NCBI GenBank assembly: GCA_029907355.1 | Contig: JARYLZ010000029.1 | Location: 1 to 33,794, forward strand | Direction: 5' to 3' | Length of the DNA: 33,794 nucleotides | DNA from: Bacteroidota bacterium | GTDB lineage: Bacteria > Bacteroidota > Ignavibacteria > SZUA-365 | Shown: piece by piece, positions 9,184 through 27,436 of the stretch | Layout of the letters: each line of letters begins with the position of its first letter | Numbering within the stretch: position 1 is the first letter of the stretch | Notes under the pieces: model-generated | Told to the model about the DNA's origin: nothing | What the model saw: the letters and a program-made list of their open reading frames with translations, nothing else | Database searches by the model: none | Program-made: the position numbers and the translations under genes

Positions 9184-12100
9184 GTCATAATTCCACTATG
9201 GTGCGATTAACAGGTATCCTCGGACTATGACCCGTCAATACCCCCGTACTGGGATCACAATTCCACTATGGTGCGATTAACAGCCCCGGTGAACAGTTGC
9301 TCGAAGTGATTCTGTTCACCCGTTATCACAATTCCACTATGGTGCGATTAACAGTGGGGAAATGTACGACGTAACGGTTGCCCCCAAGAGGAATCACAAT
9401 TCCACTATGGTGCGATTAACAGGCGGCCCAGGCCGCACTAGAAAAGTCCCGGTGCTACATCACAATTCCACTATGGTGCGATTAACAGTGGTCACGAAAG
9501 CTGATGATGGCGTTGTCGAATTCACATTTATCACAATTCCACTATGGTGCGATTAACAGCGCGGGGGTTAGCGGTTGATAAATCGCTTCGGATCGTCTTA
9601 TCACAATTCCACTATGGTGCGATTAACAGGAAGCTGCTCTTCGGTCAGACGACCGACGAGCGGCAACATCACAATTCCACTATGGTGCGATTAACAGGGA
9701 ATGTGGAGTATAATCTCACATATCCCCCAGAAACACATCACAATTCCACTATGGTGCGATTAACAGGCAGGAGCCCGTCATGCAGATTCGCTCCGGGAAC
9801 TATTCCCATCACAATTCCACTATGGTGCGATCAACAGGGGGAAAGTCCCCAGGAAGGGGAAGGAAACAATGAGGTCGAATCACAATTCCACTATGGTGCG
9901 ATTAACAGTGCCGCACCGATCCTCTTCTGAGGTCGGCCGTCCGGTAGGATCACAATTCCACTATGGTGCGATTAACAGCGATGGACTGGTTGCAGAGAGT
10001 CGATGAAGACACCCGGCAGATCACAATTCCACTATGGTGCGATTAACAGACATGCGCCGTGATTACACGACGCAGAGCGGTCCCTCCATCACAATTCCAC
10101 TATGGTGCGATTAACAGACCGTCCAGATAGGGACGGATGTGACGGAGTTCACCATATCACAATTCCACTATGGTGCGATTAACAGTCATCCGCAAGCTCT
10201 ATGAGACGCCGATCTATGGAGCACGATCACAATTCCACTATAGTGCGATTAACAGTATTTTCGTAATAGTTCACCAAACGAAAAATCAAGGAGAAATCAC
10301 AATTCCACTATGGTGCGATTAACAGTACGGGTCGCGGCGGTAAGAAACAGACCGGACCAAAAAATCACAATTCCACTATGGTGCGATTAACAGTTGTCCT
10401 CCTTTTTTGAATAACTTGTTTTGAATAAAAATCACAATTCCACTATGGTGCGATTAACAGCCCATTGATGCCTACCTCAATCTCCTCCATTCATGGCATC
10501 ACAATTCCACTATGGTGCGATTAACAGTCGATATCGATCCTCTGGATGACGAATATACCTATTAATCACAATTCCACTATGGTGCGATTAACAGCTTAAT
10601 GGGGAATTTTACGTTAACGTCAGCGGGATACTATCACAATTCCACTATGGTGCGATTAACAGGGGCCGACGGCGAGAAGCACGGCCTTGTGGGCTTCGTA
10701 GAGATCACAATTCCACTATGGTGCGATTAACAGTTGTGGGATATCGAACGTACCCGCCGCGGCCTTCCGGCGATCACAATTCCACTATGGTGCGATTAAC
10801 AGTGATAAGACCGGCAGCAATGATTCGCTGCCGAGTCTCAATCACAATTCCACTATGGTGCGATTAACAGTGCAAACCGCTCAAACCGCCGGTCAAGTTC
10901 CCTCCAAATAATCACAATTCCACTATGGTGCGATTAACAGGAGGTGCGCATGGCACGGAAAAGCTCTCCTTGCAACGGATCACAATTCCACTATGGTGCG
11001 ATTAACAGAGATTCTAAAGGAGGTAAAAATGGACAACGAACAAGTAATCACAATTCCACTATGGTGCGATTAACAGGCAGGCGGGCAAGTATAGCGAACT
11101 CAAACTCAACATTATCACAATTCCACTATGGTGCGATTAACAGGCTCTACTACGGAAAGGAGAGGGAGCCGATAGGTCCATTATCACAATTCCACTATGG
11201 TGCGATTAACAGTGCCGCGTCCTGTCTGGATTGCGGCGCGTGAGCATTGCATCACAATTCCACTATGGTGCGATTAACAGTCGATCAGGAGGGATATCAT
11301 GTGCTTCTCTTGGTCATCACAATTCCACTATGGTGCGATTAACAGCCTTCGCATACTGGTGCTGGCGCGAGGCGTACCTGCTCTATCACAATTCCACTAT
11401 GGTGCGATTAACAGCCACAATACACCCTGTGGAACATCGAAGTTACTCGCCGATCACAATTCCACTATGGTGCGATTAACAGGCATATTCCCCCTATCAA
11501 GCCCTCGAGGCCGTCCTTGCATCACAATTCCACTATGGTGCGATTAACAGTCCTGCTGATAGGCCCCTTTAGCGCAGGTCCACGCGACTTATCACAATTC
11601 CACTATGGTGCGATTAACAGCTGAATATATCCAAAGCCGCTGTTCGAAAATCTATAATCACAATTCCACTATGGTGCGATTAACAGATATTTTTTCAGCG
11701 CGTCAAGTTCTTCGTGCTTGAGCGCGAATCACAATTCCACTATGGTGCGATTAACAGTTCTCTTGGTCACTCCCGAGGAACAAGCGCTTCTTTCAGATCA
11801 CAATTCCACTATGGTGCGATTAACAGCGGCCACTCTTAAATTCAACGGAGGATGCCATGATCAATCACAATTCCACTATGGTGCGATTAACAGGGTAGAT
11901 TGGTTCAGCATCCCGGCCTTCCATGTATGAATCACAATTCCACTATGGTGCGATTAACAGAAGAGGGGAGTACGATGTGATGGATGCGGATACGGGCGAA
12001 TCACAATTCCACTATGGTGCGATTAACAGTGAGTCTAGGTTTTTTAAAGAACTGGGCTACAATACCGTATCACAATTCCACTATGGTGCGATTAACAGAT

Positions 12101-13063
12101 AGATAATTCGGAAGATAATGCGGAGCCTGTCTGCCAATCACAATTCCACTATGGTGCGATTAACAGGGCGGGGGAAGTTCGTCCCGTGGCGACGCCGTCA
12201 TCATCGCATCACAATTCCACTATGGTGCGATTAACAGCAAGACATATGCAGGTCAAGACATACGGGAGACAGGCCGATCACAATTCCACTATGGTGCGAT
12301 TAACAGTGGCCCCCGGCCTCGAGTTTACTGCCGAAATCAATGGATCACAATTCCACTATGGTGCGATTAACAGGGCGCCGAATCTTGGGCGGGAACCTCT
12401 CTTGGATCAAGTCGATCACAATTCCACTATGGTGCGATTAACAGTGTCCATCCAGATTCGAACGGCCTCAACTAGACCGGGAAAATCACAATTCCACTAT
12501 GGTGCGATTAACAGATGTCAAGGCTGCGGGACAAAAAAAACACCGCCTACCATCACAATTCCACTATGGTGCGATTAACAGTGAGGGGAAGGAAGAAAAT
12601 AAGGTTGAGGTGGCTACCTATCACAATTCCACTATGGTGCGATTAACAGCACTGATAAAATGCTTGACTATTCTTTCCAGCCGACTACTATCACAATTCC
12701 ACTATGGTGCGATTAACAGGGATCGTTGCCCTATATAGAGTGGTCGCCCGGCGGGATATATCACAATTCCACTATGGTGCGATTAACAGACTCTGATGGG
12801 CGAGGCCGTAGGCTACGCGGGCGGCTACATCACAATTCCACTATGGTGCGATTAACAGCTCTCGCCGGATAACTACGAGCTCTTCCCTGTGGAACGATCA
12901 CAATTCCACTATGGTGCGATTAACAGCTATGGATACGTGGTCACTACGTCGCGCGTGCTATCGGTATCACAATTCCACTATGGTGCGATTAACAGTGGTT
13001 TTGGCGGCCGAATCCGGAAACAAAATTCCCGCCATCACAATTCCACTATGGTGCGATTAACAG
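9184..13063 (-). CRISPR. CRISPR array, 57 repeats and 56 spacers
   Basis: The 30-base repeat on the plus strand starts ATCACAATTCC and ends GCGATTAACAG; spacers are 35-41 bases. I assign minus-strand transcription for three reasons. The reverse complement resembles repeats of the AATCGCACC...GGAATTGAAA class, giving a predicted 8-base crRNA tag AUUGUGAU. The first plus-strand repeat (9184-9213) is degenerate at two positions, as at a leader-distal end. And cas2-cas1 with a short AT-containing leader lie at the other end. In the minus orientation AUCGCA can pair with UGUGAU, including one G-U pair, to form a hairpin for Cas6. Two other repeats carry single changes (9808-9837 and 10226-10255). 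Spacers are strikingly strand-biased; see findings. Confidence 0.98.
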
Positions 13064-13172
13064 AGTTCAAATTCAGCCTATTTTCCCAAAAAATCAAGGT
13101 GTTTTCGACCTAAAACGTCGTCGACCCCATAAGCGGTGAGAAACCCGGGGGGATCGACGGCAGATTATGGCC
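13064..13172 (-). promoter_or_regulatory. CRISPR leader between cas2 and the array
   Basis: 109 bases separate the cas2 stop from the first (leader-proximal) repeat. On the minus strand the half nearest the array is AT-rich. The half nearest cas2 contains an imperfect inverted repeat (arms 13119-13128 and 13149-13159, CGTCGACCCC against GGGGATCGACG) that may terminate or attenuate read-through from the cas operon or mark integration. No clear -35/-10 pair was identified. Confidence 0.6.
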
Positions 13173-13439
13173 TTAGAGAAAGTTGCTCGGTCCTTCTTCT
13201 CTCTTACCGAGCTGTTTTTTCACGACATAACTCTCGTCAGGGAGGATGTAGATGATCAGTGAGTCGCCTTCTTCCTCTTCGACATACCGCCTTACTTCCC
13301 GAATGAGCCCTTCCAACTGCTTCTCCGTCAACTCGCCCTCGAACACCGACCTCTGTTTCCACGTCAGGTATCGGCGCATGACTTTAAGGGTTTTCGGGTT
13401 ACGCTTGATGGCGACATCGTACACGGCAATGCAGTACAT
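13173..13439 (-). CDS. cas2: CRISPR-associated Cas2
   Basis: An 88-residue protein with the Cas2 ferredoxin-like fold signature: MYCIAVYDVA with Asp8 of the YDV motif, VMRRYLTWKQRSVFEGELTEKQ, and the SLIIYIL strand. Cas2 forms the central dimer of the Cas1-Cas2 integrase. It lies 27 bases after cas1, with GGGGAAAGGAA as ribosome site, and directly precedes the leader, the usual order for an adaptation module. Confidence 0.95.
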   Translation of the reverse strand: MYCIAVYDVAIKRNPKTLKVMRRYLTWKQRSVFEGELTEKQLEGLIREVRRYVEEEEGDSLIIYILPDESYVVKKQLGKREEGPSNFL

Positions 13440-13466: not shown

Positions 13467-14543
13467 TCACCACAATGCGGCGAACGGTTTGTATTCCTCG
13501 TCCCCCAGGAGATGCTTTACCAGCTTGTAGCACTCAAGCCGGATCAGGCGCCGGTACGAGACGGCCCTCCCCAACCCCCGGTGCTCGACGACGGTTTTCA
13601 TCTTCTCCTCGAACGCCTCCACGACGGTTTTCCTTCCCCTGTCGTTGAGCAGGCAGGCCCCGTTCTCCCGCCGGAAATCCTCCGGCCCAACCATCTGCCG
13701 GTTGACCAGAGAGAACACGAGGCGGTCGGCGTACAGGGGTTTGAAGACCTCGGCGATATCCAAGGCCAGCGAATGCCGCCTCGCGCCCGGCTCATGCAGG
13801 TACGAGAGCGTCGGGGAGAGCTGGGTCCGGTATATCTCGGAGAGGCAGGCGGAGTATACCAGCGCGTTGCAGAACGAAATGAGCGCGTTCACCTCGTTGT
13901 CCGGCGGGTGCTTGACGCGCCCGCGGAACTCGAACCGGCCCTCGAGGACGGCGGGGAACGCCTCGTAGTACGCCGCGCGGGCGGAGCCCTCGACGCCGCG
14001 GAGCTCGGGGATGTCCTCTGCGCTCCCCGCGGCTTCGACCGCCGCCTCCACCCGCTCCCTCTGGGCAGTGCACGCGCGGCCGCGGTTCTCATAGTAGCGC
14101 AGGGTGCGCGCCATGTTCCGCACTGCGCCCGCGACGAAGACACGCGCCAGGGCAAGCCTCTTCCCCGGATCCAGGCAGTGCGCCGCCTGGGCGAGCAGGA
14201 GCTTCCCCGCGTGCAGGTACTCGCGCGGGTAGTAGCTCCCCGCATATTGCCCGTAGTGCGTGTAGACGTGCAGGGGGATGGCCGCCTGCCCGAGGAACCG
14301 CAACGCCTGCGCGTTCAACGTGATCGAACCGAACACGTGCAGGGAGTCGACATCCGCGATGGGGATGCGCTTCGCCGTCCCTGCGGCGCCGTCCTCGCCG
14401 CGGAGGTCGATGACTTCCTCGTCCGCCGTGTCCGAGGGGGTCTCGTAGCCCGGGACATACGAGGAGTCGCGGGGGAGAAAAGCAATCGTGTTGTCCCGGC
14501 GGTGTATCGCGCCGGTGGAGAAAATATAGTAGGGTCGTTTCAT
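13467..14543 (-). CDS. cas1: CRISPR-associated Cas1 integrase
   Basis: A 358-residue Cas1 of the I-B-like type (MKRPYYIFSTGAIHRRDNTI). Predicted metal ligands are E185 (RGVEGSAR), H250 (SYLHEPG) and D262 (LALDIAEVFKP), all present, so integrase activity is expected. Compared with usual members of about 330 residues, an acidic/Gly-Ala insertion occupies roughly residues 34-60, between the YVPG strand and IADVDSLHVFG. No reverse transcriptase domain is fused. GAGGAGG lies just before the ATG. Confidence 0.95.
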   Translation of the reverse strand: MKRPYYIFSTGAIHRRDNTIAFLPRDSSYVPGYETPSDTADEEVIDLRGEDGAAGTAKRIPIADVDSLHVFGSITLNAQALRFLGQAAIPLHVYTHYGQYAGSYYPREYLHAGKLLLAQAAHCLDPGKRLALARVFVAGAVRNMARTLRYYENRGRACTAQRERVEAAVEAAGSAEDIPELRGVEGSARAAYYEAFPAVLEGRFEFRGRVKHPPDNEVNALISFCNALVYSACLSEIYRTQLSPTLSYLHEPGARRHSLALDIAEVFKPLYADRLVFSLVNRQMVGPEDFRRENGACLLNDRGRKTVVEAFEEKMKTVVEHRGLGRAVSYRRLIRLECYKLVKHLLGDEEYKPFAALW

Positions 14544-14600: not shown

Positions 14601-15056
14601 TTACGCGCGGCAGATCGGCGCGACGGGACAGCGCGAACAACTCGGCGCCATGCCGTTCCTGGGCGGCGGGGCGGGAAACGCCGCCGTGCGCTCGATGGCT
14701 GGGAGAACCGTGCGCTCGAGCTCGCATTCCTCCTCGCCGTTCGGCGTGAACACCGCCGCCGTCTCGCCCGTCTCGTCCACGCATTCAATGGTTCGGACAG
14801 GAACCCCCATCGCGCGGAGCGCACGCGCAACGTACGCGGCCTGCAACGCCGCGCCGTCCATCTCGGAAGAGGGGCAGCGGATGACGGCATGGGCGCGTTC
14901 TGCGTCGACGCGCAGCAGCCCGTCCACGAATGCGGCTTCGCCATCGTCGCTCCGCGCGCCCGGCATGAGGCCTTCGCCGTCGCACACGATCCCCGCGGCG
15001 AGGAACCACAACCTGCGCGGGCACACAGCCGCAGCCCGAAGGAGTTCGCTACGCAT
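14601..15056 (-). CDS. cas4: Cas4-like protein, nuclease motifs degenerate
   Basis: A 151-residue Cas4 homologue. The four Fe-S cluster cysteines are recognisable: C12 in the CPRRLWF motif and C140, C143, C149 in the C-terminal CSRCPVAPIC. Cas4 normally trims prespacers and selects the PAM with a RecB-type D...ExK...QxxxY core. Here the region after D45 reads LLRVDAERAHAVIRC, with no ExK, and the Gln motif is LQAAY with shifted spacing. The protein is short for the family (usually 165-200). It may be a non-catalytic prespacer-binding subunit. It overlaps the end of the 275-aa gene by 8 bases and precedes cas1 by 57, so it belongs to the adaptation operon. GGGGAGG precedes the ATG. Confidence 0.8.
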   Translation of the reverse strand: MRSELLRAAAVCPRRLWFLAAGIVCDGEGLMPGARSDDGEAAFVDGLLRVDAERAHAVIRCPSSEMDGAALQAAYVARALRAMGVPVRTIECVDETGETAAVFTPNGEEECELERTVLPAIERTAAFPAPPPRNGMAPSCSRCPVAPICRA

Positions 15057-15876
15057 GGCAAACCTCCCCGAGGATCCGGGCGGGCCTGCCGCACCCTCCC
15101 TCGCCCAACCGCCAGGCCGCGCGAAGTTCCCCCACTACCCGCCGCAGGCGGGCATCCGTCGACGGGTCGACCGGAATTTCGTTTCCCAGGGCGGCTTGCC
15201 GAACGGCCATGACCACGGCGGCCTCGAGTTCCCCCAACGATTGGTTGTGCCGCCAGTGCCAATATGGACCACAGCCGACCCCGGTGGTGTGGCTTTCTGT
15301 ATCGGGTGTTTCTCTATACGAGGTGATGCTCATGACCTCGTACGCCGAACAGCCTGTTTCCTCGCCGTAGGTGATCTTCATCACGTTCATCCCGTTCGCA
15401 CAATAGGTGAGAACGGCTCGCCCGTACTCCTCGTATTCTTCCTGGGCGGCCACCGGTCCGCCCCAAACGGCAGCGAGAGAGGTCACGGCGAGGCCGTGCA
15501 CCCATCGCTTGTTCACGCGCGTGTACTTCGGCCCGATGACGCCGTGAACGCGCCGTTCCGGCGTAACCAGCAGGTGAAAGCCCTCCCTCCCCGCCGTCAC
15601 GCCGAGCACGGCGCCGCTTAGCTGTTCGAACCTCGCGCGCGCCTCTCCTACCGAAATCGCCGGATCGAACTCCCCGCCAAGAAACGAGGTGAGGAACGCG
15701 AGCACCCAACCGGCGACCCCCTTTGGTCCTGGGATGACACCCGTGAACACGGGGAGGGAACCGCCCGTGGAAAAGACGACCGAATAGTCGTCCTTCCCTT
15801 TCCGGACCTGCATCTTGTCGAGAGGCACCCGGATAAGCTCGTCGTCGAATGCGCATTTCATGTCGAGAATGGACAT
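15049..15876 (-). CDS. unrecognised 275-aa protein heading the adaptation operon
   Basis: A protein starting MSILDMKCAFDDELIRVPLDK that I do not recognise. Visible traits are a Gly-rich hydrophobic stretch (PKGVAGWVLAFLTSFLGG, about residues 50-68) and a conserved-looking central TPERRVHGVIGPKYTRVNKRWVHGL. A Cys/aromatic cluster (GVGCGPYWHWRHNQ) and a helical C-terminus follow. AAGGAGAG precedes ATG 15876; longer upstream frames lack ribosome sites. Its stop overlaps the cas4 start, so it is translationally coupled to cas4-cas1-cas2. That placement makes an adaptation role plausible. It could instead be a remnant effector; no catalytic motif is evident. Confidence 0.7.
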   Translation of the reverse strand: MSILDMKCAFDDELIRVPLDKMQVRKGKDDYSVVFSTGGSLPVFTGVIPGPKGVAGWVLAFLTSFLGGEFDPAISVGEARARFEQLSGAVLGVTAGREGFHLLVTPERRVHGVIGPKYTRVNKRWVHGLAVTSLAAVWGGPVAAQEEYEEYGRAVLTYCANGMNVMKITYGEETGCSAYEVMSITSYRETPDTESHTTGVGCGPYWHWRHNQSLGELEAAVVMAVRQAALGNEIPVDPSTDARLRRVVGELRAAWRLGEGGCGRPARILGEVCHA

Positions 15877-15912
15877 GCCGTCTCTCCTTTTTTTCGTTTC
15901 GGGGAAAAGGAA

Positions 15913-16058: not shown

Positions 16059-16197
16059 TACACCCATAACCCACCAATGCAGCGGGTGGCCGCAGCGTGG
16101 AGGAAAGCATGGGAAAACCGTATTGCCTATTTTCGGCAAGGGGTATTCATCCTTCTCCCCATCAAGCCGCCAATGTACCCAGAACCGGAGAGGGGCC

Positions 16198-17136
16198 ATG
16201 CCGATGGACGCGTTGATTTCCCTGATGGGCGAACAGCCGATGCCGGCGCTTCTCCCGGCCAGGTTTTTAAAGGCCCCGAGGAACATTCTCGTGACTTCGG
16301 ATGAGTTCCGCAGGCGGGTGGAATACGTGAGCCGATTGATCGATGGCGCGGAAATTGTCGAGGTCGAGCCCTACGACCTCGAAGGGGCGTACCGGAAAAT
16401 CCGGGACGTCCTCGAGGGTTCGCGCGAGCCCGCTATCAACATGACGGGTGGGACGAAGATCATGGCGCTGGCGGCTTTCCACGCGGCGGGGGACAGGAAG
16501 TGCCGGCTCGTGTACATGACGACCGCGGGCGGCGCATGCACCCTCTCGTCCTACTACATCGGGAGGAAAATTATCCGGCTCGAGTCATCCGAGCCGCTCC
16601 CCGAACTGATCACGATCGACGACTACCTGCGCGCGCATCTGCCGGGGTACAGCATACGCCGGCCGGAGACCAGAGAAGACGGGACACTGCTTCCAGGGCA
16701 CAAATTCGAGAAAGAAATCGCGCGCATCTTAAAATCTTCAGGCTTCGAGGTGCTCATTGGGGTTGAACCGGAGGGAATGGAAAAACAAGAGGAAATCGAC
16801 CTCGTCGTGCGCCGGGGAAACGTGGTCGGCGTGGTCGAAGTCAAAGTCCATCGCCATGATAAATACGGCAAACCGAAAATACATCCAGAAGAAGCCTGGC
16901 ACCCGAAGCGCGGCTATGAACAACTCCTCGCACTCTGCGCAAGGGAATACCTCGGCCTGGAAACGAAGAGAATATTCATCACCGACTATAAAAACGAACC
17001 GGAAGTGCGGACGTTCGGCGACGGGCATGGTATCCGGACCATCGAGCTCTGCTCCTGTTTCGGCGGTTCTTTCCCGCCAGGGGACAAGAGCGACGAGTAC
17101 AAGCTCGTCCGTGAGATGAAGACAGCGCTCACCTAA
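16198..17136 (+). CDS. CARF-domain nuclease, Card1/Can2-like (DUF1887 type)
   Basis: A 312-residue protein. The N-terminal CARF domain (about 1-145) contains INMTGGTKIMALAAF (80-94), the ligand-binding signature of CARF proteins that sense cyclic oligoadenylate. The C-terminal PD-(D/E)xK nuclease (about 165-290) shows E171, D201 in QEEIDLVV and E214-x-K216 in VVEVK, a complete catalytic set. By analogy with Card1/Can2 it should cut nucleic acid when cOA made by Cas10 binds. The start at 16198 follows AGAGGGG; longer upstream versions lack a ribosome site and family similarity. It is divergent from the adaptation operon and 129 bases upstream of the sensor-less sigma54 activator. Confidence 0.85.
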   Translation: MPMDALISLMGEQPMPALLPARFLKAPRNILVTSDEFRRRVEYVSRLIDGAEIVEVEPYDLEGAYRKIRDVLEGSREPAINMTGGTKIMALAAFHAAGDRKCRLVYMTTAGGACTLSSYYIGRKIIRLESSEPLPELITIDDYLRAHLPGYSIRRPETREDGTLLPGHKFEKEIARILKSSGFEVLIGVEPEGMEKQEEIDLVVRRGNVVGVVEVKVHRHDKYGKPKIHPEEAWHPKRGYEQLLALCAREYLGLETKRIFITDYKNEPEVRTFGDGHGIRTIELCSCFGGSFPPGDKSDEYKLVREMKTALT

Positions 17137-17265
17137 CGTGGGGGAGCGAAACGAGAGGGATACCGGGCGGTATGTTGTTCCGTCTTCCTCGATCACAATT
17201 TCTTTTCATAAAATAAATTTTTCTTTATATTCATTACGGTTTCCATTCCTCAGAGAACAAGGGCG

Positions 17266-18234
17266 ATGGTTGAATCGGATCACGATCTCTTTTTTCCCCG
17301 CTCCGTGTTGGACGAGGCAAGGCGCGTCGCAGAGTGGAATTGTGGGAAATCGGCGCCTGATACATTCAATATCCTCATCCTCGGCGAGTCCGGGACGGGC
17401 AAGGAGAGGCTCGCAAGGTTTATCCATGACGAATCCGTCAAGCACGATAAAGGGGGGGGCAAGTTTCAGGTCATCCACTGCGCCGGCCTGCCCTCCTCTC
17501 TGCTCCAAGCCGAGTTATTCGGCCACGTGAAGGGGGCATTCACGGGAGCCGTGAAGGACCGGAAAGGGCTGATGGCCGAGGCGGAGGGCGGTACGCTGTT
17601 CCTCGATGAGATCGGCGATATACGGTTGGAGGACCAAGCCGTCCTCCTCCGCGTCATCCAGAAACGGGTCTACACGCCTGTGGGGAGCAACGTCCCAAAG
17701 ACGTTGGATGCCCGTATCATTACGGCGACGAACAGGGACCTACCCCGTGACGTGAAAGAGGGCCGCTTCCGGGAAGACCTCTTCTACCGGATCCAACAGT
17801 TCACCCTCCGTCTCCCCCCCCTCCGCGAGACGCCCGACATCCTCGAGAGGATGGTGGACAAACTCTCACGCAATTTCGGGTACACGCTCACGGAAGGCGC
17901 AAAGCGGATAGCGCTCACCTATGGATGGCCCGGCAATAAGCGGGAGCTGGAGCACGCCCTCCGCCTGTTCCGTCTCTACCAGCAGGATGGCCGCGTGGGT
18001 GAGAACATTCTCCGCATGTACTGCGAACGGCACAACACACTGCCGCAGGATTCCTCCCCGAGGGGCACCGTACCAGCGGGCTTTGTCCTCCCGGACTGGC
18101 TCCGAAAAAGGGAAAGGGAATGGGTTGAGCTCGCCATGGAGCAGGCAGGCGGCATCCAGCGAAAGGCGGCTTCGCTCCTCGGCGTTTCGCCGCAGAACCT
18201 GAGCAATCGGCTCAGGAGCCTCGGCCTTCGCTGA
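17266..18234 (+). CDS. sigma54-dependent activator without sensor domain
   Basis: A 322-residue bacterial enhancer-binding protein reduced to AAA+ and HTH. Visible are Walker A GESGTGKE (40-47), the sigma54-contacting GAFTGA (90-95), Walker B TLFLDE (110-115), the arginine-finger region FREDLFYRI, and a Fis-type HTH at the C-terminus ([22 protein letters not shown]). It lacks any N-terminal receiver, GAF or CARF domain, as in PspF, so control must come from a partner or from expression. It follows the CARF nuclease on the same strand and ends 21 bases from the convergent csx2. AT-rich DNA at 17200-17240 may hold its own promoter. Confidence 0.9.
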
Positions 18235-18255
18235 CAGCGGGCCATGGAAGGGGTT

Positions 18256-19416
18256 TCACGAGCGCAGGCGCGCGATGGCGAGCGCGCACACTTCCTTGAC
18301 TCTCTCGACGGCTTTGCCGGCCCGTATGGCAGACCAATGCATACCCGCATGGTCGATGTCGTTCCTCAGGGAAGTAATCTGTTCCCACTCGTATCGGATC
18401 TGCCTGTCCTTTTCCCCTGATCGTCCACGCGGCTTCTTGAGCAGTTCGCTCAACAGATTCTGCCCCGTCACTCTATCGTTCTTGTCTGCCGGATTGAGGC
18501 CCCGATCGAGACAGAACCAGGTGAGGTAGGACTCACGGGCAAGCGTGACCGCCTGGACGTAGCGCTCGGTGCTGATGTACTCCTCGATGATGGCTGCCTG
18601 TGCGGGGAGGCTTTCCCGCGCATATATGCTGATGCCGGCAGGCACGCACATGGAGCCGTACCGCCCTAACGATCTCTCGAGGATAACGGCGAAAGGCATG
18701 AGATGTGGCGGCATCGTATCGATGGGTTTGCCGGATTGCGTCTCCCTGGCGAGCTGACGCGCGGCTTTCAGTGATTCAGCGGGCCGGATGAGCGCAAGCG
18801 CAGCCGTGAGGTGCTCGAGCGTGCCGGCGACGGCTTTCAATTTTCTCAGCTCCTTAACGGGCTCCTTGCCGACGGACTCTGCGACGATGTCGCGGAGCGG
18901 TCGAGCGTCTCCATAGCGGATGATGATATCCGCGGCGTTCGACCAATCGAGAAGCCGCAGGAAGGACGTGCAATCGACGATGGGCGCGACGTTGCTCTCA
19001 TCCCTCCCCTCATAAGCGCCATAGACAATGCGCTCGACCGTTAGCCTTTTGCTCGTGCGGAGGAACGCACAGCACGCAAGCGCGATCAAGGGTTGGGAGC
19101 GGAAACCGTGCGTGATATCGACGATGAGCGGTTTGTCGCAGGGTATTTCTCGCAGGATGCCATCTGCGGTGTCCCATAGGCCCTCCTCCGAAGTCGCAGG
19201 ATGGGAGTCGATGACGGTGAAATCACCGATCGCCTCTGCGAGGGGTTCGCCGTGTTTCTCGACGGCCTCTTCCGTCATCACGGCGAACACCCGATCGGGC
19301 GCGAAGAACCGCACGAGGGCTTCCGCGACATACCGCGTGGTATGCGTTTGGGTAACCCAGCGGTACGTCGTTTCTTGGTATTCCCCGATGCCGATGAACG
19401 TCAAGAGATTTCCCAT
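18256..19416 (-). CDS. csx2: Csx2/TM1812-family CARF-HEPN ribonuclease
   Basis: A 386-residue protein of the TM1812 (Csx1-like) family. The N-terminal CARF domain opens LLTFIGIGEYQETTYRW and carries the family hallmark VDITHGFRSQPLIALACCAFLR. The LLDWSNAADIIIRYGDA segment joins it to a helical C-terminus. The HEPN catalytic RX4H motif is present as R351-NDID-H356. Family members are non-specific RNases activated by cyclic oligoadenylate, causing dormancy or abortive infection. It is the last gene of the csm operon, 10 bases after csx3. No csm6 is present, so this protein probably fills that role. Confidence 0.88.
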   Translation of the reverse strand: MGNLLTFIGIGEYQETTYRWVTQTHTTRYVAEALVRFFAPDRVFAVMTEEAVEKHGEPLAEAIGDFTVIDSHPATSEEGLWDTADGILREIPCDKPLIVDITHGFRSQPLIALACCAFLRTSKRLTVERIVYGAYEGRDESNVAPIVDCTSFLRLLDWSNAADIIIRYGDARPLRDIVAESVGKEPVKELRKLKAVAGTLEHLTAALALIRPAESLKAARQLARETQSGKPIDTMPPHLMPFAVILERSLGRYGSMCVPAGISIYARESLPAQAAIIEEYISTERYVQAVTLARESYLTWFCLDRGLNPADKNDRVTGQNLLSELLKKPRGRSGEKDRQIRYEWEQITSLRNDIDHAGMHWSAIRAGKAVERVKEVCALAIARLRS

Positions 19417-19426
19417 ATCGGCAGCC

Positions 19427-20374
19427 TTACAGGAGGAATCCGGCGCAGAGGTCCACCAGCATTGTCGGAACCATCACAGGATTCCCACGTTCGAGCGGCC
19501 CGATTTCGAACAACGGCGGACTTTTCCGGGCGACCCGCCGGGCCTTGTGCCGAACGGAACGGATTTCCGCGACGACCGTCAGGCCGCTCGCCGCAGCTGC
19601 CCCGCGCCACTCCGATAACTCTCTCTCGTCCGACCCCACAATGACCGCATGCGTACACTCGTTGAGGATGCGCTGGTTCCGCCGGTCGATCTTCCCCCCG
19701 CAGTCGACGAAAACAAGCGACTTCGCTTTTGCCAACCCACGAATGTCGCGGGCCGCATTCTCCGCGTGCTCGTCGTCGAATACTTTTTTGACTCGGATGA
19801 GTTTCGCTTCGTTCGGAGGCATATCGCCGAACCAATCTCCCTCGCCGTCGGGGGCGCTCCGGTAGAGGAAGATTTCCCTTTGGAAGATTTCGGGCCGGGC
19901 GCGTTTCTTTATCGCGTCCCGCAATGCCCGCATGAGGACGGATTTCCCGCGATGAGGCGGCCCGACGATGGCGATAACGCGGCCTTTCCCCTCAGGCGGT
20001 GATTCGCCGCCTTTCCTCTTCGTGTGGCGGTGCCTCGGCCGGAGGGCATTGATGATGTCATTGCCGATGATATCCCCGACAAAAGGCGGTTCCGGCGCGT
20101 GCGACTCCACCACGACGGCGCCGATCCTCGGGTCGTCCACCGCCACCCAGGTGGCGGGGTGGCATAAGTGGATCAGCGTCCCATACAGCCAGATAGGTCC
20201 TTTCCCCGAGAGGACGACCCCTTTCGACCAGTCGATCTTTTTCGGCAAGCGGACCGATTTCAGGTCTTCCGGTGCAATGTTGCCGTCGCCGCCGATAAAA
20301 AGATCGACGAATTGGAACGCCTTCCCTGATTCCGTTGTACCCTCGCCGACGAATGTGATTTTCAGGTTCTTCAT
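19427..20374 (-). CDS. csx3: Csx3 (Crn3-type ring nuclease) fused to a P-loop ATPase domain
   Basis: A 315-residue fusion. Residues 1-105 are Csx3: KITFVG, GVVLSGKGPIWLYGTLIHLCHPATWVAVDDPRIG and VVVESH. H72 and the DPR motif (81-83) correspond to residues conserved in family members that cleave cyclic tetra-adenylate. A P-loop domain follows, with Walker A GPPHRGKS (138-145), a Walker B-like SLVFVDCGG and a C-terminal Rossmann-like half (THAVIVGSDERELSEWRGAAAASGL). Csx3-AAA fusions are known; the role of the ATPase part is unclear. It would switch off the cOA signal. ATG 20374 is preferred over an in-frame TTG; the gene starts 5 bases after the csm5 stop. Confidence 0.88.
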   Translation of the reverse strand: MKNLKITFVGEGTTESGKAFQFVDLFIGGDGNIAPEDLKSVRLPKKIDWSKGVVLSGKGPIWLYGTLIHLCHPATWVAVDDPRIGAVVVESHAPEPPFVGDIIGNDIINALRPRHRHTKRKGGESPPEGKGRVIAIVGPPHRGKSVLMRALRDAIKKRARPEIFQREIFLYRSAPDGEGDWFGDMPPNEAKLIRVKKVFDDEHAENAARDIRGLAKAKSLVFVDCGGKIDRRNQRILNECTHAVIVGSDERELSEWRGAAAASGLTVVAEIRSVRHKARRVARKSPPLFEIGPLERGNPVMVPTMLVDLCAGFLL

Positions 20375-20379
20375 CGCCG

Positions 20380-21843
20380 TCAAGCTCCCGATTCAAGCGG
20401 CCGAACAAAGCGAACCGCCTTGACCTTCTTCTTCTGCTTGTCGAAGTCGGTGATTTCGACAATGATGGTTTCTCCGAGTTGCCTCGAGTTCGGGTTCACA
20501 CCAGAGCATGGGATACGCACCGTCTCATATCCCGCGGCGTAGAGTTCGACGAGAATGGGCTTCCTCGAAATATCACGGACAAAGGCGGGGATGTCTTTCG
20601 TATTGCTTGTGATCTCGTCCAGCTTTTGAAATTGGACTTTCGCTTGTTGAATATCAGCAATCGGCACCTTCACCGTTTGTTCATGCTCCGGCTCTTGTTT
20701 CACCGTTATACTGGTTTTTGCGTATTTCTCGACTTCTTCGGGTTTCAGCAGACGAAGGAGAACCCAGCCTGTTGGGTAAAAGGGCTCGTTGTGTTCGAAA
20801 ACGATTTTACGAGTTTTCGGGAAGGGGAAACCATGACGTCCAAGTCGCATTCTCCGTTGTTCCATTATTCTCCTCACGCGCTCGAGTTCTTCCTCTGTAA
20901 GGAAATCGCCGGTCATCGCTTTCCACCCGGATCCCCAGGCTATGCGTAAAATAGCTTTGTCGCATGCTTCGCGAGATGCGAATTCGCTAGCGAGGGAAAG
21001 GAGATTCGAGATTGTCTTTTTATACTTTGGGAGATTCGGGTTCTGTAATCGTTCGAGGTAGTCGTTTTCGGCCTGAAGGAGTTTAAGGGAGTGTGTGTTC
21101 AACTTCCGGCATATCGACATCATGTTCTCAACCTTATCATGGAATTTTAATTCGGATACGGCTCGCTCATTCTTATAAAGGAATGTCGATATCTTGATCT
21201 TTCCCATCGAACGAGCGCCCGGTTTTAGGCATTCAGCGTATATTCTCATAGGATTGTTTCGAACCTGTTTCCATGTGCATGTTGCACCAATCGGATCGGA
21301 CATATTCAACACCCTCGTCTCATAGAGCCCAAGTGCGTGATCGGGGAAATAAACATCTGAAACGAGAAGTACCCTCATGTCGTTGTGATTGGGGTCGCTC
21401 CCGAATGTATTATTGAATAGATTCTTGAACTTTTCCGGTAATTCTTCGTCATTTAGGGATGGTCTTGCCGCCTTTTTCATCCTCGACACACCGATGGCTG
21501 TCCGCATTGCTCCTTTTATCGAACTCCCCGGAATATACACGCGGCCATTGCCGTCTCTAATGAACTCTCGAATTACCTGAGAATAGCAGACCTCGTTATA
21601 AATCCTCTTTCGGGGGATATCACGGAGTACATTTTGCGGGTTGCCGTGTGGATCGGTGAATTCGTTAATACACTCGCGATGAGCCCTCAACCAACCCATG
21701 ATTTCCGCGTAGGTGCATATATATGTTCGCGATCCATCCGTATAAAAATCATAATTTCTCTGCAGGGCAACACCGTTCCCCACGTGTAAAGGGGTAAGGA
21801 CTTCAATTACGCAGACGGATATATCGATCATTTCATTGCCCAT
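20380..21843 (-). CDS. csm5: Csm5, type III-A RAMP subunit
   Basis: A 487-residue Csm5. The N-terminal RAMP domain contains VIEVLTPLHVGNG and the family motif VYIPGSSIKGAMRTAI. A long helical middle (about 215-330) and a C-terminal domain follow. Csm5 caps the crRNA 3' end of the Csm complex and helps its maturation. Start 21843 is supported by GGAGG six bases upstream, lying within the end of csm4; an ATG at 21855 is less likely. Only one base separates the csm4 stop from this start. GC content is visibly lower than in csx3 downstream. Confidence 0.93.
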   Translation of the reverse strand: MGNEMIDISVCVIEVLTPLHVGNGVALQRNYDFYTDGSRTYICTYAEIMGWLRAHRECINEFTDPHGNPQNVLRDIPRKRIYNEVCYSQVIREFIRDGNGRVYIPGSSIKGAMRTAIGVSRMKKAARPSLNDEELPEKFKNLFNNTFGSDPNHNDMRVLLVSDVYFPDHALGLYETRVLNMSDPIGATCTWKQVRNNPMRIYAECLKPGARSMGKIKISTFLYKNERAVSELKFHDKVENMMSICRKLNTHSLKLLQAENDYLERLQNPNLPKYKKTISNLLSLASEFASREACDKAILRIAWGSGWKAMTGDFLTEEELERVRRIMEQRRMRLGRHGFPFPKTRKIVFEHNEPFYPTGWVLLRLLKPEEVEKYAKTSITVKQEPEHEQTVKVPIADIQQAKVQFQKLDEITSNTKDIPAFVRDISRKPILVELYAAGYETVRIPCSGVNPNSRQLGETIIVEITDFDKQKKKVKAVRFVRPLESGA

Positions 21844-21844
21844 C

Positions 21845-22843
21845 TCAACCTCCATCCTTTTGCAGGAAGTATGGGATACTGAATGCCTGCATGTAGCGGA
21901 ACACCGGATGATGGATTTGAGGGTGGTCCTCACGCCCAAGGACAATCGGACAGCACCCTTTCGGCTCCCTGTTGTCCCGAAAAACGAGCACAGAACCTTC
22001 CCGGAATGCGCGAACGCGCCTTCTGTGCAAGGTTTGCATTCCAAGTGACGTAACCCATCCTCCCCGTTCCTCGATTTCGTAGTATGATTCTTTCGGGAGA
22101 AGGGAATTTATTTCCTCACTGGCCGGTATATAGAGCGAAAGGAGGAGTGAGGAGTTGCCGTTTACCGCTTCGGGGATGGATATGGTTTCCTCTTCGAAAG
22201 TAAATAGCCCCTTCCCACAGGTTCTGTCTGCACCGATACCTTCATCTGCCAAGAAGCCGATGCATGTCCGGAGAAGTTCCGCATTCTGCCGGTCGAACGT
22301 ACGGGCAAGAAAATAAAGCCCTGAATCGCTACGGAAGAATGTCTCTGAAAAGTAGAACAATTCCGTGCTGTTCGTTACGCGGTCGATCACGACGCGAGGA
22401 ATTTCCCTCGTAACGTACACACCCTTGCAGTCATCATGTTTCAGCTCCGATTCCAGAAAGAGGAAACCGGATTCCGAGGATATTTCCTCTAATCCAACTT
22501 CTTTCCCGCTTGAGTTCAATACACGAGCCAGGAGACCAAGACTCATATATGCTGCTTTTTTCAAACGCTTATACTCAACAGCGCCGTCGTGAATTCTCCA
22601 TGCGAACGGCATTGGGAAAAAGAGCACATCGCGCACGAACGGAAAACACGAAGAGACGAGAATGTTTCCCGACTTCATTAACTCCCCGACACTCGCACCG
22701 CCGTAGAGTTTTGCTGCAGCCGAACAGAGCGCACCGAAGAGCGCATCGGACCTGAGACGCGGTTCACAGCTTTCCAAACCGAACCCATCCACACCGAGAT
22801 GGTATCCTGACTCGAATCGAAGACGGAAGAGAGTGCATTCCAT
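21845..22843 (-). CDS. csm4: Csm4, type III-A RAMP subunit
   Basis: A 332-residue Csm4 (Cas5 group). It begins CTLFRLRFESGYHLGVDG with the conserved RLRSDALFGALCSA. It carries ELFYFSETFFR, SGLYFLARTF and the Gly-rich loop DEGIGADRTCGKGLF (about 210-225). Csm4 holds the 5' tag of the crRNA and contacts Cas10. The start lies 4 bases after the csm3 stop with GGAG overlapping that stop, indicating translational coupling. Confidence 0.93.
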   Translation of the reverse strand: MECTLFRLRFESGYHLGVDGFGLESCEPRLRSDALFGALCSAAAKLYGGASVGELMKSGNILVSSCFPFVRDVLFFPMPFAWRIHDGAVEYKRLKKAAYMSLGLLARVLNSSGKEVGLEEISSESGFLFLESELKHDDCKGVYVTREIPRVVIDRVTNSTELFYFSETFFRSDSGLYFLARTFDRQNAELLRTCIGFLADEGIGADRTCGKGLFTFEEETISIPEAVNGNSSLLLSLYIPASEEINSLLPKESYYEIEERGGWVTSLGMQTLHRRRVRAFREGSVLVFRDNREPKGCCPIVLGREDHPQIHHPVFRYMQAFSIPYFLQKDGG

Positions 22844-22847
22844 ATTG

Positions 22848-23612
22848 TCACTCCGTATGCTTCAATTCTGCCGGGATACGCTGCATTAAGGTCTCGTCGT
22901 CCTCCCAATCCTTCCTCGAAACGTAGTGTTCTCTTGTCTTTTTCCGTACCCGATTGACGGTGATCTTGATTTCACCGCTACCGCGGGTACCCTTACCACC
23001 GAGGTAATCGTTCTGGAGAAGTATCATGCTCCGGAAAAGCAAATCAAGAAGCTCCTCTCTCACATCGCCCTCATAAACATTTACAATCATCCTCATGATG
23101 AAACGTGAGCCCGCCGGGACACGCTCCAGTTGTCGCGGCATTGCTTGTGAGGTAATCCTGTCGATGACAACTTCCGTTTTCACCTCGGTGTACGGCATAT
23201 CCGTATTGCCGGAGTTCCGCAACTCTTCGGCGCTGTCCTCCGTCAACGGTGCATCGCGAACAATGAGGCGCGAAGTCGGCTGACGTTCATTTTCTTTCAT
23301 TTTTTCCGGGAGTGTCCCGAACAGCTTCGGAATAAGGCAATTATTACTGATTTCGAGATATGGCCCTACTTTAATATACTTGCCCATCGCACCGCCGAAC
23401 TTACCATCCATCCTCTCAACGAGGCATCTCATTTTCCCTTTCAAGGAAGAGCCCGGGATATACGGTTCACTTGTCAATGGGTTTCTGACAACCGTTGCGT
23501 CCGCTCCCCCAATGGATGCACCAACGTTGGAGCCTCCGATGTGGAGTCCAGACACAGCAGTGATCCACCCTTCGACGAGTATTTTCTCATTCAGCTTGAC
23601 TTGCTCGTTCAT
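22848..23612 (-). CDS. csm3: Csm3, backbone RAMP and target-RNA nuclease
   Basis: A 254-residue Csm3 (Cas7 group). The motif GASIGGADATVVRNPLTS with D38 matches the catalytic Asp that cuts target RNA at 6-base intervals. YIPGSSLKGKMRCLVERM follows, and the Gly-rich loop GGKGTRGSGEIKI lies near residue 215. RNA cleavage should be intact. Start 23612 follows GGAGGAAATTAAC; upstream in-frame starts fall on the ribosome site itself. One base separates it from the csm2 stop. Confidence 0.95.
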   Translation of the reverse strand: MNEQVKLNEKILVEGWITAVSGLHIGGSNVGASIGGADATVVRNPLTSEPYIPGSSLKGKMRCLVERMDGKFGGAMGKYIKVGPYLEISNNCLIPKLFGTLPEKMKENERQPTSRLIVRDAPLTEDSAEELRNSGNTDMPYTEVKTEVVIDRITSQAMPRQLERVPAGSRFIMRMIVNVYEGDVREELLDLLFRSMILLQNDYLGGKGTRGSGEIKITVNRVRKKTREHYVSRKDWEDDETLMQRIPAELKHTE

Positions 23613-23613
23613 G

Positions 23614-24039
23614 TTAATTTCCTCCATTTGCACGGTGGTAAGCTAATATCGCTTCGAAGAACGCAGCGAAATTATCGAAACGTTTCCGTTGATTATGGTA
23701 ATCACGTTCTTCGAGAACGGTTTCGATTGCTTTCGAGAGAATTTTACCGAGTTCGTCGGCAGCTCTCTTTTCATTGTCGGTTTTTCTCACCTTTGCATAA
23801 GCAAGTCGAGGCTTCAATAGGGCAACATCCGTCTCAAAATTCTCCTCGTCTTTTTTCATTTGGATTCTCTTTACCTCGCCGTAAGCGTTTCGTATTTGCG
23901 AGCTTGTGAGCTTACCTGCCAAGTCTTTCCCACATCCCTCAGCAAACTCGATCGCTTCTTTTGTGAGGCCTTCGCGAATCCATTTCGGCGTCATTTCCAA
24001 GCCGACTTTAAGGTTTTTAATAACGTTTTCATCCGGCAT
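23614..24039 (-). CDS. csm2: Csm2, small subunit of the Csm complex
   Basis: A 141-residue helical protein. Its core, LTSSQIRNAYGEVKRIQMKKDEENFETDVALLKPRLAYAKVR, is the characteristic Csm2 segment, and a FAAFFEAILAYHRANGG tail ends the protein. Csm2 lines the groove that receives target RNA. Start 24039 follows GGAGAG. The first 11 bases overlap the end of cas10, so the two are translationally coupled. Confidence 0.92.
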   Translation of the reverse strand: MPDENVIKNLKVGLEMTPKWIREGLTKEAIEFAEGCGKDLAGKLTSSQIRNAYGEVKRIQMKKDEENFETDVALLKPRLAYAKVRKTDNEKRAADELGKILSKAIETVLEERDYHNQRKRFDNFAAFFEAILAYHRANGGN

Positions 24040-26509
24040 TTCCGCTCTCCTTTCTTGTGAAATAATCAATAAGCGTTGCGAGTATGTCTGTGTATTCGAT
24101 TATGTCGCTATTACCGTTCCTGTTCAGGAAAAGTTGTTCGGAAAATTCTTCGATTGCCTTTTTGATTTTTTCCTGTTCACTATACATCATCTCCATTCTA
24201 ACGAGAAAATAACAGGCCCTCCATCTCCAGGGTCCCCAAGCCCCGTTTCTTTTATATTCATCGTGTATCGTGTAGAGCCGTCCGACGACAGCTCTTCTCA
24301 AGGCATCGTTCTCCGGCTCGGTAACGATAAGTGATGAAAACCGTTTTGCCCATCCGCTGATCATCGCATACATATCCCACGTCATCGGCTTACCGAACAG
24401 GCAAAATGAATTTTTCTCCGGTCGGAAAGTTTTCGCTGACTCTTCCGCATCACCTGCCAGGCGCGCAGCTTTGATGAGAGGGTAATCTTCTGGAATAACC
24501 GCAACTCCACCCGATATACTTAAATATGGATGGTGTCCCGTAAAACGACTGAACTCGTTCTTGATCCAAAACGCCGTGTCAGGAATTACGTTCCATTGGC
24601 CTACGATAAAGAGGTCGTCACCTCCTGCATAGACGATCTCCAATGCTTCTTCTAAACGGGTTCCATCGCTCGAATCCGAGATCCCTCTTTGTATATCCCA
24701 TCTTTTATCTCTTAACCGATTGAGGTAAGAAGAAAAGAAGAAGTCCATCATCCGCGAAAGCTGGACAATTCTCGAAAGCGACGCATTACTTCCGAAACCT
24801 TCGCGGAATACTTTTCCGAGATTGTCGACGTCCATGCGAAGGACACCGATGCGATGAATACCAAGGGCTTCTTGAGACAACTCCTCAAATTCCTTGCCGG
24901 TTGTCCAATCTCCGCCGTAGAACTGCCAGCCTGCTTTTCTCGAGCGGTTGAGTAAAGGGGTAAAATCATCATCGTTAAAAAGTGCAATTGACGAGAAATG
25001 CGACGCTCCGTGGTAATCTTCTTTGAGGTCGCTTTTCTTCAGGATTTTCATCGACCATGGATCGAGAAGGTAATGTCCTTCGTCCCCTTCATCACTCTCG
25101 ATCGCGATTGCCAGACCACGGCGAAGGTTCATCCCTAATTGTTGCGAGAGGCGCTGTTCTTCAGAAAGGAAATAGCCTTTCAAAGCGGGTATACCTTCTT
25201 CGCCCGTTTCCTCGTTCACTGAATAGATAATGAGGTTTTTCTCACTCATAAGCGATGGTACTTCATATCGGGTATAGCCATCCTTATCGACAGATTCCGT
25301 CGCGCGCTCGATGTCGGAACGGAGACATAATTCCCTGCCGGTGGCGGTGCACGTCACGACGTCGCCGGCCGGCGCCTGGGGCAAAAAGAAGGAAATGTCG
25401 TTGAGTTTGGAAGAAAATCGCCGTTTCTTCATCCGACCGAGAATATCTTCCGCCTCTTGCCATTTCTTGGTGATCTTATCCGAATCGAAATCGTTTCCCG
25501 TCAGAGTGCACGCCGCCCAGATGATCCCGATAGAACTCCCATACCAATCGTAGAGCTTGTCTTCAGCCATTTTCATGATTGAGGATATCCGGGCTTTCGA
25601 TTGTTCCAGCTTGGGCAGGAGAACATAGAACTTTCCCCCGCTCGCATAGATGAGATTGGCTCGCGTCAGACGGAATTCTTTCAACACGAGAGAAGCGCAT
25701 TCGAACAGGATCCTCTGCAGGAGGAAGGATCTCCCTTTTAACGCTTTAAGGGCACCTTTATGTGCGATATTGTAAATGAACCTTTGTATACCAGTGAGGT
25801 CGCCGCAGACGAGCAGGTATCGCTCTTCATCCCGTTTCCGGACAATATTTTCGTCTATATTCGACGCAAGCGTTTCCATGAGGAAATCATACATACAGAC
25901 GGATATTGCTGCAGTTAATCTCGAGTGCTCGTAGAGTGATATATCAGGCACGGAAATGTACGCTGCAGAAGGAATGCACCACATGTATTTCTCGAACAGA
26001 TAGAGGAATGTATCTGGGTCAGCCATCGTCATCGACCGGATTTCTTTCTCGAATGCATCCCATTGCGTCCGGTAGTCTTGCATCAATTCCTGATGGCTGT
26101 ACTGTTCTTCTGTTTTAGGGAACCGGTACCCCTGCGGAGTGAGCCTGCATATCGGTTGTACGTAAACCTTTGGTTCATTCTCGTTGAGACGGATTCCCGA
26201 AAAGACACAGCGTAGAGCTCTTTGGGGGTGGGGTTCCTTTTCCTCACTCCTTTCCTTGCTCGAGAGGTTGTCCGCTTCGGAAACGATTGCCGCGAGAACT
26301 TTCAACGGGGCTTCGAGTGAAGCCGCCTGAAAATCTTTCTCGTGATGGAAACGAGCTATTTCGGACACCCTTCTGTCGGACATGATGTTTCCGACAAAAG
26401 CAGAAGAAAGAAACGCATGCTTGTAATCTTTCAGCTCGGTGCTGCGCTGGTAGAATTTTCCAATGTCGTGGAACAGTGCACCCCAGAAAAGAGCTTCACG
26501 ATCTTCCAT
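24029..26509 (-). CDS. cas10: Cas10/Csm1, DNase and cyclic-oligoadenylate synthase
   Basis: An 826-residue Cas10. The N-terminal HD domain has H14-D15 in GALFHDIGKFYQRS and a second RFHHEKDF, so ssDNase activity is expected. A Palm1 region with GDLTGIQRFIYNI follows. Palm2 carries the cyclase motif GGDD at residues 629-632 (IVYAGGDDLFIVG), required to make cyclic oligoadenylate. The C-terminal helical domain contacts Csm2. Start 26509 follows AGAGGA. The gene overlaps cas6 by 14 bases and csm2 by 11. Base composition drops sharply relative to cas6. Confidence 0.96.
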   Translation of the reverse strand: MEDREALFWGALFHDIGKFYQRSTELKDYKHAFLSSAFVGNIMSDRRVSEIARFHHEKDFQAASLEAPLKVLAAIVSEADNLSSKERSEEKEPHPQRALRCVFSGIRLNENEPKVYVQPICRLTPQGYRFPKTEEQYSHQELMQDYRTQWDAFEKEIRSMTMADPDTFLYLFEKYMWCIPSAAYISVPDISLYEHSRLTAAISVCMYDFLMETLASNIDENIVRKRDEERYLLVCGDLTGIQRFIYNIAHKGALKALKGRSFLLQRILFECASLVLKEFRLTRANLIYASGGKFYVLLPKLEQSKARISSIMKMAEDKLYDWYGSSIGIIWAACTLTGNDFDSDKITKKWQEAEDILGRMKKRRFSSKLNDISFFLPQAPAGDVVTCTATGRELCLRSDIERATESVDKDGYTRYEVPSLMSEKNLIIYSVNEETGEEGIPALKGYFLSEEQRLSQQLGMNLRRGLAIAIESDEGDEGHYLLDPWSMKILKKSDLKEDYHGASHFSSIALFNDDDFTPLLNRSRKAGWQFYGGDWTTGKEFEELSQEALGIHRIGVLRMDVDNLGKVFREGFGSNASLSRIVQLSRMMDFFFSSYLNRLRDKRWDIQRGISDSSDGTRLEEALEIVYAGGDDLFIVGQWNVIPDTAFWIKNEFSRFTGHHPYLSISGGVAVIPEDYPLIKAARLAGDAEESAKTFRPEKNSFCLFGKPMTWDMYAMISGWAKRFSSLIVTEPENDALRRAVVGRLYTIHDEYKRNGAWGPWRWRACYFLVRMEMMYSEQEKIKKAIEEFSEQLFLNRNGNSDIIEYTDILATLIDYFTRKESGNAG

Positions 26510-27344
26510 TTTTTTCCTCTCCTTCTTTTTCTCTATCCCTCCCCGTGCTCTCTTCCCACATGCCGAAGCCCAGGCTGTTCTTCTCGCCGAGGCCGCAGTC
26601 CCAGGCGGTTTGCAGAAGGGGCGGGTCACAGCGGAGCACGAACGGGAACACGAAACCGCGCACGCGCGTCTCGCCCGGACGCCCCTCGCGGACGGTCACG
26701 AGCCGCGAGAGCTTGTCCCAGCCGCCCTTCGTTTCGGCGTATGCGGACTCCGGCTCCACCAAACAGCGCAGAGGCTCATGCAGGGGACCGTTGACGATCT
26801 CGTGCTTTCGCAGGAGGTTCATCGCCAGCCCCTCCCCAAAGCGCGGGTCATCCGGCCGCAGGTAACGTATCCTGCCGGTCTCCCGGTCCTGGACCGACAC
26901 CGTCAGGGGGGAGCGCGCCACGCAGGCGAGGGCTTCACGCCACTCCGGCGGAGGCGCGACATCCACCTCGGCGACCGAGAACGACGCCCGTTCCCTCACG
27001 TCGTTCAGGACGATGCGGCTGTTCCGGAACAACCCGAGGACGACGGCGCGCACGAAGGTCTCGTGCATGGGGGATGCCACGATGAGCCGGAGGCGCGGCC
27101 GTCCGTACCAGCGCAGGCGGCCGTCGGACAGGACGGGCCTCCGATCGGACCAGAGCCACGAGAAGGCGAAGAGCTTGAGCCTCCTGCCGTTGGAGGATTC
27201 ATACCCCTCGTCATGGAGGAACGCGGCGTATTCCGGCGCGCTCCGCGAAAGGAGCGCGTACATGGCGCCCGCCAGCAGGTATTGGTAATTGACCGGGACG
27301 CTGGTGTCCGCGCGTTCCGGCCTCAATGTCATGACGAGCCGCAT
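26496..27344 (-). CDS. cas6: Cas6, crRNA-processing endoribonuclease
   Basis: A 282-residue Cas6. The N-terminus (MRLVMTLRPERADTSVPVNYQYLLAGAMYALL) and FLHDEGYE, with the likely catalytic His, match the family. The C-terminal Gly-rich loop is CGLGEKNSLGFGMWE. Cas6 cuts the repeat RNA to leave the 8-base 5' tag. GGAGGG lies upstream of ATG 27344. It opens the effector operon, and its DNA is much more GC-rich than the overlapping cas10. Confidence 0.92.
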   Translation of the reverse strand: MRLVMTLRPERADTSVPVNYQYLLAGAMYALLSRSAPEYAAFLHDEGYESSNGRRLKLFAFSWLWSDRRPVLSDGRLRWYGRPRLRLIVASPMHETFVRAVVLGLFRNSRIVLNDVRERASFSVAEVDVAPPPEWREALACVARSPLTVSVQDRETGRIRYLRPDDPRFGEGLAMNLLRKHEIVNGPLHEPLRCLVEPESAYAETKGGWDKLSRLVTVREGRPGETRVRGFVFPFVLRCDPPLLQTAWDCGLGEKNSLGFGMWEESTGRDREKEGEEKNGRS

Positions 27345-27436
27345 GTCCGATATCCCTCCGCGATGAGTCTGGACCGCCTCTCCCTCCGTGCCGCCGACGG
27401 GCACCGGCGCTCGAGCAACGGGATATGTGGTCCGAT

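Follow-up and report, generated by a model that had tools for sequence, protein, structure and literature searches.

The spacers of a type III-A CRISPR array in a Bacteroidota bacterium carry a real one-way coding bias, such that the predicted crRNAs would be predominantly antisense to coding mRNA. The bias is probably due to the known survivor selection for transcript-complementary spacers in a presumably RNA-targeting III-A array. It is a pronounced example of something already described, not an anomaly or a new mechanism. The window, that is, the whole stretch of 33,794 nucleotides analysed here, corresponds to contig C95 in a draft genome of 3.25 Mb and 98.9% completeness.

The type III-A locus

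Judged by its profile matches, the locus in the window is a complete type III-A (Csm) system with its own Cas1 and Cas2, in agreement with the type III system recognised in an earlier, sequence-only reading of this DNA. Csm1 to Csm5 all score above the NCBIfam cut-offs and are encoded on the minus strand: Cas10/Csm1 at 24029..26500 (TIGR02578, E 1e-169), Csm2 at 23614..24045, Csm3 at 22848..23615, Csm4 at 21845..22843 and Csm5 at 20380..21900. Cas6 (26496..27404, minus strand, profile matches) and Cas1-Cas2 adjoin the array. Cas2 (13173..13439, 88 aa; TIGR01573, PF09827) and Cas1 (13467..14543, 358 aa; TIGR03641) are both on the minus strand, and Cas1 is type I-B-like and free of any RT fusion. 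The same genome also encodes a type I-G system, divided between contigs C156 and C110, with Cas3g, Cas8g, Csb1-Csb2, Cas4g-Cas1g, Cas2 and an array of 58 repeats and 57 spacers.

On the minus strand of the window, a degenerate Cas4-like protein of 151 aa (14601..15056) was recognised by weak Cas4 matches and by alignment. It retains the iron-sulfur cysteines, but the HEVKKS nuclease motif reads HAVIRC, so that the EVK motif of active Cas4 is lost, and its Pfam Cas4 score (18.4) lies below the cut-off of 22.7. The protein is possibly a nuclease-dead Cas4 in the III-A adaptation module and, given the missing HEVKKS motif, PAM-directed orientation has probably been lost or altered; the motif loss is also relevant to how PAMs are selected. 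Immediately 5' of the cas4-like gene lies a minus-strand gene for a 279-aa protein (15049..15888) with zero matches in Pfam, NCBIfam and PADLOC; co-transcription of the two genes is possible. An ancillary set at 16060-20374 and 29230-30729 comprises, by profile matches, a Can2/Card1-like protein with CARF and PD-(D/E)XK nuclease domains (16060..17136, plus strand), a CARF-HEPN ribonuclease (Csx1/TIGR02221; 18256..19416, minus strand), a Csx3-AAA ring nuclease (19427..20374, minus strand) and two sigma-54 activators. CARF models match the N-terminal part of the RtcR-like activator (29230-30729), and the second (17266-18234) is matched in its C-terminal part alone.

Direction of the array

Repeat detection recovered the same coordinates as the sequence-only reading, with 57 repeats of 30 nt and 56 spacers of 35-41 nt at 9184..13063. 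Transcription of the array on the minus strand, also predicted by that reading, is well supported by four features of the sequence. Both cas1 and cas2 are minus-strand genes that read toward the array. The leader (13064..13172, minus strand) shares by eye the pattern GTCGACGA...TTTT...CCT-GATTTTTT with the leaders of the related loci L008 and L009. The repeat most distant from cas1 and cas2, at 9184..9213, is the only one to carry two mismatches, as befits a degenerate, leader-distal terminal repeat. Finally, the repeat, which reads CTGTTAATCGCACCATAGTGGAATTGTGAT on the minus strand, shows homology to the GTTTTAATCGAACCATTGTGGGATTGAAAT-type repeats found 3' of related cas1 genes, whose position relative to cas1 is the same as in the window. 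Spacer 56 (12996-13033, minus strand) is then leader-proximal, and the crRNA handle predicted from the minus-strand array is ATTGTGAT.

Coding-strand bias in the array

Searches with the complete array among phage and plasmid records, in the genome itself, in its family and order and in 395 genomes of the phylum found no protospacer; every match was to this array, to one similar to it, or due to chance. Wobble-degenerate peptide patterns searched in viral contigs and a tblastn of concatenated peptides gave nothing either. The strand of the targets was therefore inferred from codon usage, with models built from 19 gene sets (called genes of the host, of relatives in its order, of phages and of other bacteria). 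Codon scores were summed over frames and the models were mixed with weights fitted blind to strand. Since held-out gene fragments of spacer length were assigned to the correct strand 63-86% of the time, single spacers are not callable but the whole set is. An initial codon model, for which longest ORFs alone had served as training set, was contaminated by antisense frames; its strand accuracy was 63%, and it was set aside.

Across model sets, the crRNAs that would be antisense to coding sequence make up an estimated fraction of 0.91-0.97 (95% limits 0.66-1.00; sign-flip p 0.0006-0.003). With the expanded codon mixture, 42 of the 56 spacers scored plus-sense and the estimated fraction was 0.97 (0.74-1.00; sign-flip p = 0.00055); when the weights were refitted for each array, it came to 0.91 (0.66-1.00), 0.93 and 0.94. 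The sign was identical in 19/19 single codon models. Order-3 Markov models put the fraction at about 0.75-0.79. Scoring both strands by codon usage against shuffled spacers had been proposed with the sequence-only reading, and shuffling the letters inside the spacers abolished the signal (sum 3.2 +/- 9.3, versus 32.2 observed). No bias was seen in the genome's own I-G array (0.47 plus-sense, 0.19-0.75; estimated antisense fraction 0.53-0.57 across model sets), and the difference between the two arrays had a permutation p of 0.0037. A signal independent of codon models, a Shine-Dalgarno sequence followed by ATG and an open frame, occurred in 7 spacers on the plus strand and in 2 on the minus strand, versus about 1.9 and 1.6 in shuffles.

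The antisense direction of the crRNAs claimed by the sequence-only reading thus agrees with codon usage, and the coding bias supports RNA targeting by transcript-complementary crRNAs. Its wording of nearly all spacers facing one way is compatible with the data, although the codon models from which the fraction derives set its lower limit at 0.66-0.74. The plus-strand open frames offered as evidence do not discriminate, given that counts are nearly equal on both strands: 55/56 spacers contain one on the plus strand and 54/56 on the minus strand, with totals of 121 and 110 in this array and of 343 and 333 over all biased III-A arrays. Open-frame counting was accordingly dropped as a strand test. 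As for individual spacers, number 18 (10394), described as reversed, has indeed the most negative score (-2.9), whereas number 19 (10461), called ambiguous, scores plus (1.5), and numbers 11 and 40, taken for sense frames that run into a stop, score the opposite way (-1.1 and -2.4).

Along the array, 26/28 spacers were positive at the two ends and 16/28 in the weaker middle (spacers 15-42). The newest spacers (43-56) and the oldest (1-14) were each positive in 13/14 cases, and no age gradient of the bias was found, so that there is no sign of old spacers being continually purged.

Other III-A arrays and DNA-targeting controls

A Csm1 search in the 395 phylum genomes pointed to further III-A loci; ten out of thirty were analysed, six of them with a detectable array. 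The array on contig C2 of genome G352 was added through its similar repeats, and the six-spacer array of G035 was omitted as too small and uncertain in orientation. The orientation of each array was taken from the homology of its repeats and from the position of cas1. The antisense fraction was 1.00 (0.92-1.00) in G186, 0.94 in G352, 0.90 in G127, 0.88 in G368 and 0.83 in G037, and these five genomes pooled gave 0.96 (0.86-1.00, n=137), a pool from which G023 was left out after its result had been seen. The III-A locus of G023 showed no bias (0.46, n=39), and pooling it together with the others and the array of the window gave 0.89 (0.80-0.97). The G023 array may serve another effector, considering that there are five Cas1 matches in that genome and that the Cas1 of the locus groups with type I Cas1s.

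Thirteen type I or unassigned arrays pooled at 0.51 (0.44-0.59, n=545); among these controls, L008-L010, L013 and L014 are I-B or related by their effectors, L012 was typed by its Cas7, and the remainder by their gene layout or the absence of a Csm1 above the cut-off. The start-site signatures behaved in the same manner, with 14 on the mRNA-sense side versus 4 on the crRNA side in the biased III-A arrays, and 15 versus 16 in the type I or unassigned arrays. The antisense bias therefore recurs in RNA-targeting relatives, and DNA-targeting arrays pool without bias. Two individual type I arrays leaned the opposite way to type III: L010:11469-18042, with crRNAs preferentially sense (antisense fraction 0.27, p 0.011), and L013:10102-12499 (0.12, p 0.017).

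The bias tracks the RNA-targeting effector and not the Cas1 lineage, given that the Cas1 relatives with I-B-type effectors have arrays with no consistent antisense bias and that the III-A Cas1s do not form one clade (monophyletic in 0/200 bootstrap trees, in a poorly resolved Cas1 tree).

Origin of the bias

The most likely account is survivor selection. Ordinary Cas1-Cas2 would take spacers from invader DNA, presumably in both orientations, by analogy with Thermus. Csm and its cyclic-oligonucleotide effectors would be triggered only where the crRNA of a spacer is complementary to a transcript, so a wrong-way spacer would bring no gain in infection, its carrier cells would leave no descendants with that spacer, and the surviving arrays would retain spacers antisense to coding sequence. 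Selection during infection, which we infer to be the cause, also predicts an equal bias in new and old spacers. What is observed is the bias of the array, the unbiased I-G array, the recurrence in other III-A loci and the lack of RT in this genome and in several of theirs. The failure to find any protospacer, the weaker middle of the array, the unbiased G023 locus, a bias near 95%, above the published average of 65%, and the poor resolution of the Cas1 tree speak against this account.

Four other explanations were weighed. The true bias might be smaller, about two to one as in the published type III average, with codon models overstating it. Single codon models do range over 0.66-0.98 and Markov models give about 0.78 (0.59-0.94), but the best-fitting codon models lie at 0.87-0.98, the 0.96 (0.86-1.00) of the other genomes is a replication, and 42/56 would be expected in only 0.15-0.5% of cases at a true 65% (with model accuracies of 0.66-0.75); a smaller bias seems to us rather unlikely. 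Oriented acquisition without RT, in which Cas1-Cas2 with the Cas4-like protein or host factors would make strand-specific, transcription-linked insertions, is less likely still. The near-completeness of the bias, its equality in newest and oldest spacers, the loss of the HEVKKS motif and the similar bias of several RT-less III-A loci would all fit it; on the other hand, no Cas4-like homologue was detected in the examined stretches of the other biased III-A loci, I-B-type loci with related Cas1 show no consistent antisense bias, and both Thermus (PMC7515739) and the RT-less systems covered by a review (PMC9048733) acquire without bias toward transcript-complementary spacers. That RT-less III-A modules in general orient nearly all spacers at insertion through transcription, rather than reverse transcription, is likewise improbable.

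A PAM-like or end-sequence preference commoner on one gene strand of the targets would place the origin of the bias in target genome architecture. Spacers do start with TG on the plus strand more often than expected (11/56 versus about 3.2, p 1.5e-4; 9214-13033). However, a TG start does not go with a stronger bias (mean score 0.40, versus 0.62 for the other spacers, of which 33/45 are positive), letter shuffling abolishes the signal and strand-skewed motifs would presumably yield a partial bias only, so that TG ends are ruled out as the source and target architecture in general is very unlikely. A TG start on plus corresponds to CA at the 3' end of the spacer in the crRNA, and may stem from a preference for certain ends when spacers are trimmed or integrated. 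The capture of spacers from RNA by RT-Cas1 or a separate RT is the least probable explanation, and is largely refuted. RT-Cas1 type III systems do exist, and frames of 740-790 aa with RT and Cas1 occur in some genomes of the same phylum (e.g. G152, G016 and G188), but a search of the whole 98.9% complete genome with the RVT_1 profile (PF00078) found no match, as the sequence-only reading had supposed, and its Cas1 is a plain protein of 358 aa. The genomes G127, G037, G368 and G352 likewise lack RVT_1, as does the III-A contig of G186. At most genes, moreover, RT-Cas1 systems are themselves free of strand bias (PMC9048733).

Survivor selection needs no new machinery. The sequence-only reading had offered oriented acquisition or the purging of useless spacers; the latter is the already published selection, and the former is unnecessary for the bias.

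Comparison with known systems

Artamonova 2020 (PMC7515739) found that in RT-less Thermus type III systems both strands supply spacers before selection, that the protective spacers show a strong bias, and that cells with transcript-complementary spacers survive phage. After phage infection, the III-A/III-B arrays of Thermus thermophilus resemble that of the window in lacking RT and in that their phage-derived spacers are nearly all transcript-complementary, and selection has been shown there to be the cause; the Thermus data are fresh, mapped spacers, whereas ours are the coding signals of a standing array with no known targets. Vink 2021 (PMC8482600) reported a coding-strand bias of 65% across type III and of 88% in Moraxella III-B. 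The direction is the same here, but the array of the window and the five III-A genomes are estimated near 95%, and the estimate was made without protospacers and with a type I control from the same genome. The rarity of 42/56 at a true 65% places this array on the high side, and the published average may be diluted by wrong orientation calls or by arrays shared with type I systems. The RT-Cas1 type III-B system of Marinomonas mediterranea, which acquires spacers in either orientation (PMC5576922), is like the window a type III system with its own adaptation genes; unlike it, the window has no reverse transcriptase.

The strand bias of RNA targeting can hence be read from a standing array without a known target, with a DNA-targeting array of the same cell as control. 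Several RT-less III-A arrays are biased near-completely, well above the 65% database average, so that the shares of selection and acquisition can be asked array by array.

III-A spacer 29 (11144-11182) and I-G spacer 48 (L007:4368-4403) match one coding motif, LYYGKE and LYYGRE respectively, and the two systems may therefore have met related elements. Within the I-G array, spacers 17 (L007:2092-2130) and 35 (L007:3415-3452) derive from homologous genes (YSAETDKPVR and YSAETDKPIR) in opposite orientations, which is direct evidence that this array holds both.
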